Positions 23,340 to 45,190 of a DNA stretch of 64,000 bases are shown here, in pieces. The translations under genes were made by a program, and so were the position numbers. The notes under the pieces are model-generated. The model saw nothing but the letters and a program-made list of their open reading frames with translations, searched no databases and was not told where the DNA came from. Positions within the stretch are counted from its first letter, which is position 1. Every line of letters begins with the position of its first letter. The DNA lies in assembly GCF_017873855.1 (NCBI RefSeq), contig NZ_JAGGKR010000001.1, positions 186,001 to 250,000 of the forward strand, in the 5' to 3' direction. Source of the DNA: Methanolinea mesophila. GTDB lineage: Archaea > Halobacteriota > Methanomicrobia > Methanomicrobiales > Methanospirillaceae.

Positions 23340-23969
23340 TTATTGAGAAGGCAGGGATGCCATGAGGGCATAGAAAAATTCCGGTTTCCTTAACGTAAAG
23401 AGCCCGTACCATGCGTCGAGGGTTGCGGGATTCATGACATCCAGTTTCCTGAATATGCTGTAGGCAAATTCAACCGGTGCAAGCCCGCTTCCCGTGATAA
23501 GGTTCCCGTCTGTCACTGCAGGCTCTGTCCGGTAAAATTGCGCTCCTTTGTATCCGGGGCAGAACATTTTGAGCGCTCCGGGATCATTGCTGGTGTGGGG
23601 CCGGTTGTCAAGCAGCCCGGCATTGGCCAGGCCGAGGGTAGCCCCGCAGATTGCTGCAACAACCATCTCCTGCTCCAGGAGCGTGGCTACCTTACTGATA
23701 ATCGGCGCATGGGCGGGATCAAGCCAGGTGTCTGCGCCGGGCAGGATCAGGAGATCTCCTTTTTTTGCCCTGATATTCTCAATGGTGATATCCGGTGTCA
23801 ACTTCAGTCCGCCCATCGTCGTTATCGTATCCAGGGATTTTCCGCACAGGACAACATCGTACTTCAGCGACGGGTCTTTGAGATACCTTCCGGAATGGAG
23901 TTCGCCAAGGGCATGGCCGGTTTCCCAGTCGGAAAGCGTATCAAGGATATAGAGATAGAGTATCGGCAT
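23340..23969 (-). CDS. DJ-1/PfpI family protein
   Basis: 209 residues from ATG at 23969, with a GTGAT site 5 bases upstream. The class-I glutamine amidotransferase-like fold shows the nucleophile elbow AAICGATLGLANAGLLD, with Cys in the usual AxCxG position, and GDLLILPGADTW before it. Family members act as chaperone/deglycase-like proteins, proteases or amidases; which applies here cannot be told. Codon use is less GC-biased than in most neighbours, which may reflect later acquisition. It stands alone. Confidence 0.8.
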   Translation of the reverse strand: MPILYLYILDTLSDWETGHALGELHSGRYLKDPSLKYDVVLCGKSLDTITTMGGLKLTPDITIENIRAKKGDLLILPGADTWLDPAHAPIISKVATLLEQEMVVAAICGATLGLANAGLLDNRPHTSNDPGALKMFCPGYKGAQFYRTEPAVTDGNLITGSGLAPVEFAYSIFRKLDVMNPATLDAWYGLFTLRKPEFFYALMASLPSQ

Positions 23970-24139: not shown

Positions 24140-24589
24140 TTATGCGGCCATCTCTCCCCCGGCCCGCCTGACCTGGTAGCGGGGGGAGAAGAGCCCGGAG
24201 TATTCGGTGATGGTGTGATCGCGGGGGATGTTCTGGCTCGCCCGGGGCGGGAGCTCCGCGATCGGCGCGAACCGTTCGTCGCGGCTGAGCACGGCCCGGA
24301 GCGAATCGAGCGAGAGGGTGAACCGGTCCCCGTTCACCAGCTCGATGTTCAGCGCCCGGCCGGACCTGGAGATACTCGCATTCCCTGCAGTCCCGTCGAG
24401 ATACTGCATCCAGTTCTGCCTGATTCGCTCGACACTCGCAGAAAATCCGCCCGAAAGGAGATCGTGCAGCCCGGCGAGACGCATCCCCAGGGTCGCGCCA
24501 TGGATCCGGAGCTCCACGATCTCACGGGGGATACCCTCTTCATCGAGGACCGTCAGGCCGTTTCGCTGCAGATATCCTGCTCGTTTCAT
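24140..24589 (-). CDS. Hypothetical protein downstream of nitrogenase-like operon
   Basis: 149 residues from ATG at 24589, preceded by GGTGGA. I do not recognise a family. The protein is soluble, rich in charged residues, and has no Cys clusters or membrane segments. A central stretch (GATLGMRLAGLHDLLSGGF) looks helical, and the C-terminal 40 residues are Pro/Arg-rich. Its own TATA box (ATATAAAGG region, 24633-24642) suggests independent transcription. It lies 109 bases after the second component-1-like gene on the same strand, so a linked function is possible but unproven. Confidence 0.55.
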   Translation of the reverse strand: MKRAGYLQRNGLTVLDEEGIPREIVELRIHGATLGMRLAGLHDLLSGGFSASVERIRQNWMQYLDGTAGNASISRSGRALNIELVNGDRFTLSLDSLRAVLSRDERFAPIAELPPRASQNIPRDHTITEYSGLFSPRYQVRRAGGEMAA

Positions 24590-24632
24590 TTCCACCGTCT
24601 CCTTGTGACAATCCAACATCTGGCGGAAAATG

Positions 24633-24642
24633 CATATAAAGG
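24633..24642 (-). promoter_or_regulatory. TATA box of the 149-residue protein gene
   Basis: CCTTTATATGCA on the minus strand lies about 45 bases before the start codon at 24589, leaving a leader of about 20 bases that holds the ribosome binding site. Confidence 0.5.
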
Positions 24643-24698
24643 CTCGATATGCGCAGGGTGAAAGTGAAAAGAAGGTCCGACCGGTCGGAGAGTAACGC

Positions 24699-25892
24699 CT
24701 ATACCCGTTTCTTTTCGTCGATACAGGCATTAATGGCGTCTTCCATGAAGGACAGCGCCCCTTCGGTCCCCGCAAGGGGAGTGGCCCTGAGCCTGACCCT
24801 GCCCCGGAGCGGAGGGGTTATCCCTACGAACGGGGTGCCCGGCATGAGCGACTGTTCGAACGAAGACCCTGCGATAAGGTCGGGAGGGTCCGCCCGGAGG
24901 ATCTCCTCCTCGACCCCCAGATCCAGGACCTGCCGGATCCCGCGGTCACCGGTGGTTGAACCGGGCGGACTTCCTGGCGGCGTTCCGGGAGGTTTCCCGG
25001 TCTGAGTCAATGCCCCGTTTCCAGGCGGGTTCCGGGAGAAGATCCCGGTGATCCCGGCGTCGAGGTACGTTGAGAGCATATCCGCGGCGAATCCCGCATA
25101 GCCCGCCTGGGCAAATATCGCGACGGAGGGAGGGTCGTACCGGCGGAGGTACTTGTCGCACGCCCGGACCACCCGTTCCTCGGCCTCCCGGAGTTCTTCC
25201 TCGAGGACACCGGTATCGGCGTCAGGGAACCGGAGGGAGAGCCCGGGAAGGCTCCCCCGTATCGCGGGGAACCCAAGCATCGACCCGATCTCCTCGCCGA
25301 ACCGTCCGGCGATGTCGGGATTCGCGGAGAGCGTTGCCGGGGGAAGGCGGGAGAGGGAGGAGAACCTGTCCCGGCAGAGCACCGCTCCCACCCGGATCCC
25401 TGCGAGGGAACAGAGCCTCCTGATCTCAAGTTCATTCCCCCTTCCGAAAGGATCCGCGGCGCTGATCCCTGCGAGGGTTACCCCGGAGTGCTCCGGGTCG
25501 CTCCGGAGGGGCAGTGCCTCGAGTGCCGCGGAGAAGCCCTGTTCGAACTCCCCCATGAACCCCGGGCTGTCCACCACCAGGATATCGTCCCTCCCGGTGA
25601 TGCGGTGGATATCGTCTCCGGTCAGGGCGGTCGCGCAGGTGGTCACCACCGCGAGCCGGTCGAACCGGGGAAGCAGCCGCTCCACCGTTTCCCTGACCCG
25701 TTCCTCGGCCCCGAAGACTACGTCCTCCTCCACGAGAAAGGTGGAGGAGAGGTCGGTCCGGAGCACGGTCGCCGGGTAGAAGTAACACCCGCTCGACCCG
25801 TGGATGATCACCCCGAGCCCCGAGAACCCGGAGAGGCACGCGACCGCACCCGCCATAGCGCAGGGCCAGAGCGGGTTCTCCCCTTCATGCAC
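24699..25892 (-). CDS. Nitrogenase component-1-like protein (second subunit)
   Basis: 397 residues. The N-terminal part has cysteines 11, 36 and 86 spaced like the P-cluster or [4Fe-4S] ligands of component-1 proteins (WPCAMAG, HGSSGCYFYP, VVTTCATALTGDD). It lacks the Cys/His pair that holds FeMo-cofactor in NifD. A Pro/Gly-rich insert of about 30 residues (about 288-318) is unusual for the family. It overlaps the upstream component-1 gene by 8 bases, so the two are probably a heteromer fed by the Fe protein encoded first. It is much shorter than NifK. The substrate is unknown. Confidence 0.7.
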   Translation of the reverse strand: MHEGENPLWPCAMAGAVACLSGFSGLGVIIHGSSGCYFYPATVLRTDLSSTFLVEEDVVFGAEERVRETVERLLPRFDRLAVVTTCATALTGDDIHRITGRDDILVVDSPGFMGEFEQGFSAALEALPLRSDPEHSGVTLAGISAADPFGRGNELEIRRLCSLAGIRVGAVLCRDRFSSLSRLPPATLSANPDIAGRFGEEIGSMLGFPAIRGSLPGLSLRFPDADTGVLEEELREAEERVVRACDKYLRRYDPPSVAIFAQAGYAGFAADMLSTYLDAGITGIFSRNPPGNGALTQTGKPPGTPPGSPPGSTTGDRGIRQVLDLGVEEEILRADPPDLIAGSSFEQSLMPGTPFVGITPPLRGRVRLRATPLAGTEGALSFMEDAINACIDEKKRV

Positions 25893-26910
25893 GGGTCCTC
25901 GCCCTCCACCGGTGGAGCACCCGTCGGACCCCGGAAGTGCCCGCAGGGAACGGGGACGGGAGGGGGAGGGAGGCTCCCCGCTCGTCGACCGAGAGGTCGA
26001 ACAGTTCCGCGAGCTCGCGGACGGCCTCCTGCTCTCCGGGATCCGTCACTCCCTCGAGCCTCACCGACCTGCCTCTGATGTCCCCGAACTCCTCGACGAG
26101 AGCCCGCTGGCGTCTTTTTTCCTTCTCCAACGCCGGGTCTGCCGTTTTCCCCTCTGACTCCGCAACCTGACTTAAAAAGACGAGCGTCCCTTCGAGACCA
26201 AGGGGAAATGAAGAGATAAACGGGGTCCCGAACCGGACCTCAAGGGCCTCCCCGACGGGGGTGAGCCCCGTCTCCCGGAGGATGTTTAATGACCCCCTCC
26301 CGAGGAGCCCGACCTCCCGGGAATCGATCTCCCGGACGAACCGGAGCCGGACCTCCACCCCGAGGAGCGAGAGCAGCCTGACAATCTCGGCATAGTTCTG
26401 GTCCACCTCGTACTCCAGGTTCTTCTCCCCCACAAGGGTGATTCCCCCGGGTCCTTCCCGGGCCGGCCGGCCATGGTCTTCCATGGTCGCGAGGGCGATC
26501 AGGGCATTCCTCTCCCCGTCGTGGAACCCCCCGCCGAGGAACCCGGAGGTGGGGATGTGGACCACCGGGACGGGCCGGTCCTCCCTGCAGACCATGGCGG
26601 TGTCGTCCCCGATGGTATCGGCGACACAGCTGGTGAGCACGAAGATGCACGCCGGGTCCATCTGCACGGCCCGGTGAAGCGCCCGCTCGAGGGCTTCTTC
26701 CCCCCCGAAGACCACGTCCTTCTCGGTGACCATGGACGAGAGAATCCGGGGCGGAGGTCTTCCCCGGTCCACGGCGACCGTATGGAAGAGCGAAAAATTG
26801 TGGTGGGCGCAGCCCCGGGGCCCGTGAATTATGCTGACCGCGTCACGGACCGCCGTGGTGATCGAGAGGGCCCCGGTGAGGGTGCATCCTTCAGATCGCG
26901 ATGAACTCAT
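25885..26910 (-). CDS. Nitrogenase component-1-like protein (first subunit)
   Basis: 341 residues from ATG at 26910, which lies 20 bases inside the Fe protein gene; a longer reading to 26988 gives only an Arg/Ser-rich run antisense in character. Cysteines 9, 34 and 95 ([31 protein letters not shown]) are spaced like the three N-terminal NifD cluster ligands. No Cys or His matching the FeMo-cofactor ligands is seen, and the length is two-thirds of NifD. This fits the nitrogenase-like groups (relatives of CfbD, BchN or methylthio-alkane reductase) rather than true nitrogenase. Confidence 0.7.
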
Positions 26911-27709
26911 ATGCGAGGGATTCCAGTTCCTCGATCTCGAGCGGCTCGGGGACGTCGAGCCGGGTGTTCTCCAGGACTTTTCCTGCAAGGTCCCGGTAGG
27001 CGCCCGCCTGCGAGGATTCGGGGGCGTATTCGATCACGGTCATCTTGTTCAGTTCCGCGAGCTGGACCACCGGGTCCCGGGGGATGAACTGTACCATGGT
27101 GCTCCCGATCTGCTCGGCGAAGCGGGCCACGAGCTCGTCCTCCCGGGGAAGGTTCTTCGCGTTGCAGATCACGCCCGCGAGGCGCGTCTTGCTCTTCGCA
27201 CGCGACGAGAGCCGTTTTATGGCCTTGCAGATGTTGTTCGCCGCGTAGAGGGACATCAGCTCCCCCGAAGTGACCAGGTAGACCTCCTCGGCATAGCCCT
27301 CCCGCATGGGCATGGCGAATCCCCCGCACACCACGTCCCCGAGCACGTCGTACACCACCACGTCCCCGTGGAGCGCCCCGAGCCGCTCCAGGATCTGGAA
27401 CGTGGCGATGATCCCCCTCCCGGCACACCCGACGCCGGGTTCGGGCCCGCCCGCTTCCACGCAACGGACGCCCCGGTAGCCCTCGAAGACCACGTCGTCC
27501 AGGGTGAGGGAGCGGTCGCCCCGTTCCCTGACCAGGTCCATCACGGTAGGGATCAGCCGGCCCCTCATCAGCATCCGGGTGCTGTCACGTTTCGGGTCGC
27601 ACCCGATCTGCAGGATATCCAGGCCCCGGTCCGAGAGCGCGGCTGAAAGATTTGCAGATGTCGTCGATTTTCCAATCCCTCCCTTCCCGTAGAGGGCTAT
27701 CTGCTTCAT
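26891..27709 (-). CDS. NifH-like ATP-dependent reductase (Fe protein)
   Basis: 272 residues, full length. P-loop GKGGIGKST, switch-like DPKRDSTR, cluster Cys in PGVGCAGRG and [14 protein letters not shown], and the Arg next to the first Cys are all present. It donates electrons with ATP hydrolysis to the component-1-like proteins that follow. The F430 operon at 42-47 kb has CfbD but no CfbC, so this protein could also be CfbC or serve both systems. The promoter TTTATTAG lies about 25 bases upstream of the start. Confidence 0.8.
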
Positions 27710-44125: not shown

Positions 44126-45190
44126 ATGAAGTACATGCAACCGCGGCCGAGCTCGATCGTTGCCGCACTCTACACCGCCCGGGACCTGGGGGTCGACGTG
44201 GCCATCCTCCACGGGCCGTCGGGCTGTTCGTTCAAGCACGCCCGGCTCCTCGAAGAGGACGGGCTCCGGGTGCTCACCACCTCGCTCGCGGACAACGAGT
44301 TCATATTCGGCGGGCAGCAGACCCTGGAGGACGTGCTCCGCTACGCCGAGGATAACTTCTCCCCCCGGAGGATGGCGGTGGTCGGGACCTGCGTCTCCAT
44401 GATCATCGGGGAGGACCTCCAGTCGGCCATCGACGGCGCGGGGATCGCCACCCCGACCATTGCGGTCGATATCCACGCGGGATACCCGGAGAACATCGAC
44501 GGGGTGATCGCCACGCTCGAACCGGCGGCGGAGGAGGGGTGGATCAGCGAAGACGAGCTCGACCGGCAGAAGTTCCTCCTTGCAAAGGCGAACGAGGTTG
44601 AGCGGCTCCGCGGTGCGGCCTGCAAGCCGTACATCGAGCCGTCCCGGGGAGACCTGAAACACGTCGCCGCCCGGAGGCTCCTCGACCTGGCGAGGGCAGG
44701 GAAGAAGGGCGTCGCCATTCTGAACGCGAAGAAGGAGACCGCGTACATGTTCGCCGACGCCCTGATCGCCCTCCACGACATGGCTCCCGGTGCGGACGTC
44801 ACCTACGTGGCGAACCTCGAGAACCGGGGGCTCCCCAAGGTCCGGGCTGATGCGGCGAGGATCCGGGAGGAGATGGAGGCCCGGGGAGTCCCGGTCCGGC
44901 TGGAGGGGGCACTCGACGAGTACGGGGCGAACGGCGACCGGCTGGGTGAAGTGCTCAGGGAGATCGCGCCCGATTTCGCCCTGATCGTCGGCGTGCCCCA
45001 CGCGATACCGGGGGAGTATACTGAAGGGATCGAGTGCTTCTCGATCACGAACGGCCCCCGGCAGGTGGAGCCGCTCCGGGATCTCGGCCACCGGCACGTG
45101 ATGGTGGAGGTCGACCTCCACCCGAAGACGCTCGGAGTGCAGCAGGTCGTGGAGAGCGAGTTCGGCGCAGTGCTCCGGAGCCTCGCATGA
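44126..45190 (+). CDS. cfbD: Ni-sirohydrochlorin a,c-diamide reductive cyclase, catalytic subunit CfbD
   Basis: 354 residues from ATG at 44126, with GGAGATG 5 bases upstream. It is a nitrogenase component-1 homologue: LHGPSGCSFKHARL and VVGTCVSMIIGEDL bear the Fe-S Cys residues, and the C-terminal VDLHPKTLGVQQV is family-typical. With the Fe protein CfbC it reduces Ni-sirohydrochlorin a,c-diamide by six electrons and forms the lactam ring. No cfbC is adjacent; the NifH-like gene at 26891-27709 is the only candidate in the window. Confidence 0.9.
   Translation: MKYMQPRPSSIVAALYTARDLGVDVAILHGPSGCSFKHARLLEEDGLRVLTTSLADNEFIFGGQQTLEDVLRYAEDNFSPRRMAVVGTCVSMIIGEDLQSAIDGAGIATPTIAVDIHAGYPENIDGVIATLEPAAEEGWISEDELDRQKFLLAKANEVERLRGAACKPYIEPSRGDLKHVAARRLLDLARAGKKGVAILNAKKETAYMFADALIALHDMAPGADVTYVANLENRGLPKVRADAARIREEMEARGVPVRLEGALDEYGANGDRLGEVLREIAPDFALIVGVPHAIPGEYTEGIECFSITNGPRQVEPLRDLGHRHVMVEVDLHPKTLGVQQVVESEFGAVLRSLA

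Follow-up and report, generated by a model that had tools for sequence, protein, structure and literature searches.

Our analysis revealed a conserved operon for a nitrogenase-like protein system in Methanolinea mesophila, a member of the Methanomicrobiales. The operon lies in a window of 64,000 nucleotides (contig NZ_JAGGKR010000001.1 of assembly GCF_017873855.1, forward-strand positions 186,001 to 250,000, counted here from the first letter of the stretch) and consists of three genes in the order cfbC-D-K, all on the minus strand between positions 27709 and 24699 (Table 1). The first product, H, is a NifH-family Fe protein (Pfam Fer4_NifH, E-value 1.7e-108). It is followed by two different component-1-like proteins, here named D and K and together DK, which both matched the Pfam family Oxidored_nitro (PF00148) far above its cut-off, with E-values of 2.1e-49 for D and 4.4e-31 for K. 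D starts with an ATG at position 26910 and overlaps H by 20 nt, and K starts with a GTG at position 25892 and overlaps D by 8 nt. Coordinates and Pfam matches thus confirm what the initial annotation, made by a model from the sequence alone, had described as a NifH-type gene followed by two overlapping component-1 genes of 341 and 397 residues. H and D are separate, overlapping genes, unlike the fused NifH-NifD proteins discussed below.

Table 1. Features of the cfbC-D-K locus and of cfbD in the analysed window (aa, amino acids; ORF, open reading frame).
Feature	Description	Coordinates	Strand	Basis
H	cfbC, NifH-family Fe protein, 272 aa	26891..27709	minus	NF033200 and Fe protein tree
D	NifD/E-side component-1 subunit, 341 aa	25885..26910	minus	PF00148, order-wide conservation, tree, AlphaFold2 model
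K	Second component-1 subunit, 397 aa	24699..25892	minus	PF00148, matches across the order, AlphaFold2 model
Insert of K	Pro/Gly-rich, about residues 292-318	24939..25019	minus	Alignment and model confidence
X	149-aa ORF, Methanomicrobiales family	24140..24589	minus	No Pfam or NCBIfam match
cfbD	Other presumed client of CfbC	44126..45190	plus	TIGR03282 and PF00148

H is CfbC and not a separate Fe protein. It scored 419.8 bits against the model NF033200 (F430_CfbC), above the cut-off of 402, and 388.1 bits against the nifH model TIGR01287, below the cut-off of 394.35. In a tree of Fe proteins H was placed with CfbC proteins encoded beside cfbD and with the H halves of NifH-NifD fusions, and a branch with support of 100/99 separated this side from NifH; relations inside the CfbC-side group are weak (83/46), with long branches meeting. 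The gene content of this genome was established through targeted searches. True nifH, nifD, nifK, nifE and nifN were located at C1:902-910 kb, away from the operon, and the NifH encoded beside nifDKEN is the sole other full-length Fe protein of the genome. A search for a second cfbC in this genome found none. The window also encodes CfbD, as initially annotated, with 512.5 bits to TIGR03282 (cut-off 268.4). The ORFs around cfbD read as cfbA, cfbE and cfbB by their sequence and order, no model being used, and no cfbC adjoins cfbD in this window. cfbC does adjoin cfbD in five loci of the Methanosarcinaceae-type family f8, which is probably Methanosarcinaceae itself, and in one locus of another family, while in the sampled Methanomicrobiales loci cfbC precedes D in the order H-D-K.

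We searched for H in 36 genomes, 22 of which were other Methanomicrobiales with D and K. H was the only NifH-family protein in 15 of the 22 (G042, G060, G077, G049, G101, G005, G011, G003, G021, G034, G004, G007, G001, G014 and G019), all remaining matches being worse than 1e-11, and each of the 15 encoded one CfbD above the cut-off. CfbC reduces CfbD with ATP in F430 synthesis. Many of these genomes encode no Fe protein besides H. Given this and the known biochemistry, CfbC presumably reduces CfbD here as well, and one Fe protein probably serves both CfbD and DK. The operon had been proposed to be distinct from the F430 reductase. That view stands for D and K, which are neither NifDK nor CfbD, but not for H: it is the only CfbC of the genome, and therefore the operon supplies the Fe protein needed by CfbD. 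The Fe protein of F430 synthesis is thus encoded in the D-K operon.

The anatomy of D was compared across 30 aligned proteins and that of K across 27. Cysteines C9, C34 and C95 of D and C36 and C86 of K were invariant and occupy P-cluster positions; C11 of K was absent from one row only, whose start was set too late. Together the two proteins carry six P-cluster-type cysteines. When D was aligned with this genome's own NifD and that of S. fredii, neither FeMo-cofactor ligand had a counterpart: no residue of D lined up with Cys275, and D lacks the NifD block in which His442 lies. Most of domain III is missing from D and part of domain II from K. The earlier reading of three cluster cysteines in each protein without FeMo-cofactor ligands is therefore borne out by the alignments, and both proteins are indeed shorter than NifD and NifK, by about 100-150 residues. 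An odd Pro/Gly-rich insert had been pointed out in K as well. The insert is real, and its core is predicted to be disordered (predicted local distance difference test, pLDDT, below 50 at residues 296-303 and 308-315), but it was seen only in this sequence, none of the 26 aligned relatives having a comparable one; we rejected it as a functional domain for this reason.

AlphaFold2 models of D and K had mean pLDDT values of 90.9 and 89.9. The nearest folds in Foldseek searches were NifEN, dark-operative protochlorophyllide oxidoreductase (DPOR), NifDK and MarDK, with NifEN chains as the best matches and a TM-score for the query (TMq) to DPOR of up to 0.82 for K and 0.75 for D. The top profile matches of D were NifE and NifD; those of K were NifE and, after it, nitrogenase beta chains. 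Scores stayed well below the curated cut-offs of both the CfbD model TIGR03282 (39.9 bits for D and 43.4 bits for K, cut-off 268.4) and the NifE model TIGR01283 (93.1 bits, cut-off 505.1). The leading profile match of D to NifE and the fold matches to NifEN chains would fit a role of DK like that of NifEN, as a scaffold on which the precursor of an Fe-S cluster is carried or matured, and NifB has been reported as essential also in methanogens that have no nitrogenase genes (PMC12176620). But no cysteine of D falls at the Cys275 position, most of its domain III is missing, and our searches found DK in a single order only, two genera of which do without it; we regard a scaffold role as quite improbable.

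The same missing ligands bear on a role in sulfur metabolism, in which DK would act on a small sulfur compound and cleave its C-S bond or another one, in the manner of methylthio-alkane reductase (MarDK) or isethionate reductase (IsrDK). Group IV relatives catalyse such cleavage (PMC12552129, PMC11423573) and share the H-D-K gene order. MarDK, however, uses an [Fe8S9C] cluster held by MarD residues, namely a Cys and a His (PMC12552129), and D, judged against the NifD alignment, has neither a Cys at the Cys275-equivalent position nor the C-terminal block. Mar and Isr operons furthermore carry a radical S-adenosylmethionine (SAM) gene (marB, isrB), and none was seen among the neighbours of H-D-K as read by sequence. 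The order-wide conservation described below is also unlike that of an optional assimilation pathway. Cleavage of a sulfur compound by DK appears very unlikely.

As judged from sequence comparison, D and K are under purifying selection and conserved across the Methanomicrobiales. D had matches in 195 of 199 genomes of the order at an E-value of 0.001, a count that includes cross-matches to CfbD and Nif proteins. The large majority of the order showed strong, full-length matches, and genera g6, g12 and g13 showed weaker cross-matches only. Among 296 sampled genomes from the phylum, D matches exceeded 366 bits within the order, compared with 181 bits outside it. Scanning the whole collection with D, which reaches close relatives only, returned just records labelled as Methanomicrobiales or as unspecified Euryarchaeota. 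K matched at better than 1e-120 in 105 of 112 Methanomicrobiales genomes; the seven without a strong match were G047 (genus g6) and six genomes of g12, a genus that is probably Methanospirillum-like. Lengths were uniform (337-358 amino acids for D, 364-397 for K), and ratios of nonsynonymous to synonymous substitution rates (dN/dS) between close pairs were about 0.07-0.20 for D and 0.11-0.23 for K. A pseudogene or truncation artefact, in which one of the genes would be broken in related genomes, was rejected on both grounds.

The genomes of g12 and g6 encode a cfbC that is 68-71% identical, and D and K are absent; two genera have apparently lost the pair. In G154 (g12) and G047 (g6) the gene X, which lies downstream of K in M. 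mesophila, directly follows cfbC. At loci L170 (5068-6507) and L173 (4715-6220), X comes directly after cfbC, and the D-K pair that would lie between the two genes has apparently been deleted. Genus g19 shows a different arrangement: K is detached from D, with a stress-protein gene between them in one locus, and in other genomes of the genus K lies kilobases from D on the opposite strand. One genome, G105, contains two copies of the D-K pair (C28:2359-3372 and C32:6422-7435).

To place D and K among their relatives we used a component-1 tree of 56 rows rooted on CfbD, which covered neither BchN, BchY/Z, MarD nor published group VI sequences and held MarK as a fragment from a PDB alignment only. 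D and K fell outside the NifD and NifK clades, and neither tree nor alignment places the pair inside NifDK with full ligands. D grouped with the D half of NifH-NifD fusions (96/83) and next with NifD/E (97/95), and K stood alone on a long branch. NifH-NifD fusions occur in f8 genomes, g12 genomes and some other Methanomicrobiales, and a fused nifH-nifE followed by nifN-like genes was noted by Dos Santos et al. 2012 (PMC3464626). In our set they are proteins of about 730-800 amino acids (L157:5513-7708, L158-L164, L171 and L172); the K-like gene that comes after them has an affinity to BchB/MarK. Most fusion loci contain ATP-binding cassette (ABC) transporter genes that we read by eye as BtuFCD/FecBCD type, and the binding protein tested there weakly matched the heme protein IsdE. 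Some loci also encode CbiK-like chelatases or CobN-like or CbiZ/CbiS-like proteins, all below curated cut-offs. The fusion and its K-like partner probably form a nitrogenase-like system in methanogens for tetrapyrrole or corrinoid chemistry, and the kinship of D to the fusions points indirectly to such chemistry.

A corrinoid role could be sought in the replacement of cobalt-precorrin-6A reductase (CbiJ) by DK. CbiJ had no match in any of the 32 genomes tested (Methanomicrobiales and f8), and CbiC was present in all 16 Methanomicrobiales tested. But G047, G163 and G171 have CbiC and, by a NifH search in the case of the fusion, neither CbiJ, DK nor an H-D fusion, so something else fills the CbiJ gap in these three genomes. 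We rejected this candidate, which we consider scarcely credible.

We propose, with a probability of roughly 0.5, that DK is a cofactor-free reductase driven by CfbC and most likely acting on a tetrapyrrole- or corrinoid-type substrate. D and K would form a (DK)2 heterotetramer on which CfbC docks as it does on CfbD, and a P-cluster-type Fe-S centre between D and K would be held by the six conserved cysteines. MgATP-driven electrons would then pass from CfbC into this centre. DK lacks both catalytic cofactor ligands and domain blocks. It therefore probably passes electrons from the Fe-S cluster straight to its substrate, which would be organic or metal-complexed, as DPOR and CfbD do. The absence of these blocks would open a wide cavity, suited to a large macrocycle or a protein-bound substrate. 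Among the reactions initially suggested for the operon, one on a tetrapyrrole thus remains our best guess and a Mar-type reduction of a sulfur compound is disfavoured. A narrower version, in which DK acts through an open active site on protein-bound F430 or on methyl-coenzyme M reductase (MCR) itself, so that one Fe protein would build F430 through CfbD and re-reduce it through DK, deserves very little credence.

Several points weigh against a reductase of this kind. cfbC is the only tetrapyrrole gene that adjoins the D-K operon, and the class of substrate is one that we infer from sequence relationships. K does not pair with the K of the fusion systems, so D-K and the fusion system may have different functional histories. 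Two genera do without DK, so F430 synthesis does not in general depend on it. Finally, the loss of whole domain II/III blocks could mean a non-catalytic role. The main rival explanation builds on this last point: DK would be a P-cluster relay or conformational partner that passes electrons from CfbC to a protein such as CfbD or the MCR activation machinery. The parts that build and close an active site are lost (most of domain III in D, part of domain II in K) while the cluster cysteines are invariant, and DK is co-encoded with CfbC in a methanogen. Activation of MCR has a strict need for ATP and employs clusters of the nitrogenase type (PMC12176620). Other methanogens, however, activate MCR with McrC/Mmp7 and without DK, two genera of the Methanomicrobiales lack DK, and we saw no physical or genomic link between DK and MCR genes. 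We consider a relay unlikely, and the CfbC-driven reductase remains the reading that we prefer.

If the reductase reading is true, two different component-1 systems share one Fe protein in the F430 metabolism of an order of hydrogenotrophic methanogens. D would represent, on the NifD/E side of the family tree, a form that is heteromeric, has six cysteines and is free of a cofactor, and would bear on the origin of P-clusters and catalytic cofactors between the CfbD homodimer and NifDK/EN. For annotation, the nifH-like gene of this operon in Methanomicrobiales should be read as cfbC and not as a marker of nitrogen fixation. Our literature searches found no paper on the D-K pair, most subscription literature being out of their scope, so that a mention there is possible.

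The surroundings of the operon comprise trkH, X and leu genes. trkH, a flavodiiron-like gene, X and the leu genes recur around H-D-K in relatives; they look like plain conserved synteny, and we rejected the neighbourhood as a functional clue. X had initially been noted as an unknown gene that follows the operon. We rejected it as a component of the system and regard it as a neighbour: X stays next to cfbC in loci without D and K, and in other families a long distance separates the two genes. Downstream of X a DJ-1/PfpI family protein is encoded (23340-23969, minus strand), apparently without relation to the operon. In some Methanomicrobiales we also observed a third component-1-like protein of about 390-425 amino acids, NifE/BchB-like and encoded by a single gene (L165:5262-6539, L166:5584-6807, L167:5427-6617 and L169:5911-7086). 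In L167 its gene is found close to the cfb cluster, and in L165 and L169 a LarE-like gene is nearby. This protein, too, may depend on CfbC, the sole Fe protein in G101, G005 and G004.

Compared with known systems, DK shares with NifEN and NifDK the fold, the six P-cluster cysteines, the position of D on the NifD/E side and the best profile matches of K (NifE and nitrogenase beta chains), but it has no cofactor ligands, is about 100-150 residues shorter and lies outside the Nif clades. The group IV systems MarHDK and IsrHDK have the same gene order and P-cluster-type cysteines; they differ in the [Fe8S9C] ligands that DK lacks, in their Fe protein, which here is CfbC, and in the radical SAM gene, of which we saw none among the H-D-K neighbours when these were read by sequence and without a radical SAM model. 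The H-D fusion system is related through the D halves, which form a supported group (96/83) and have an EKNL motif in common, and through its H halves, which the Fe protein tree places with CfbC. It differs in its fused H, a longer D, a K of BchB/MarK affinity that lacks the three cysteines, and its frequent location near ABC-transporter and corrinoid or tetrapyrrole genes. DPOR (BchNB) works without a catalytic metal cofactor and is a good fold match to DK, but its cluster is bound by three Cys and one Asp compared with three plus three Cys in DK, and D lacks most of domain III. CfbD, encoded separately here, is a homodimer and has no counterpart of the first of the three cysteines in its sequence, while DK consists of two different subunits with six. 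The CfbD system nevertheless resembles DK in having a short component 1 without metal cofactor ligands, and its Fe protein is CfbC itself.

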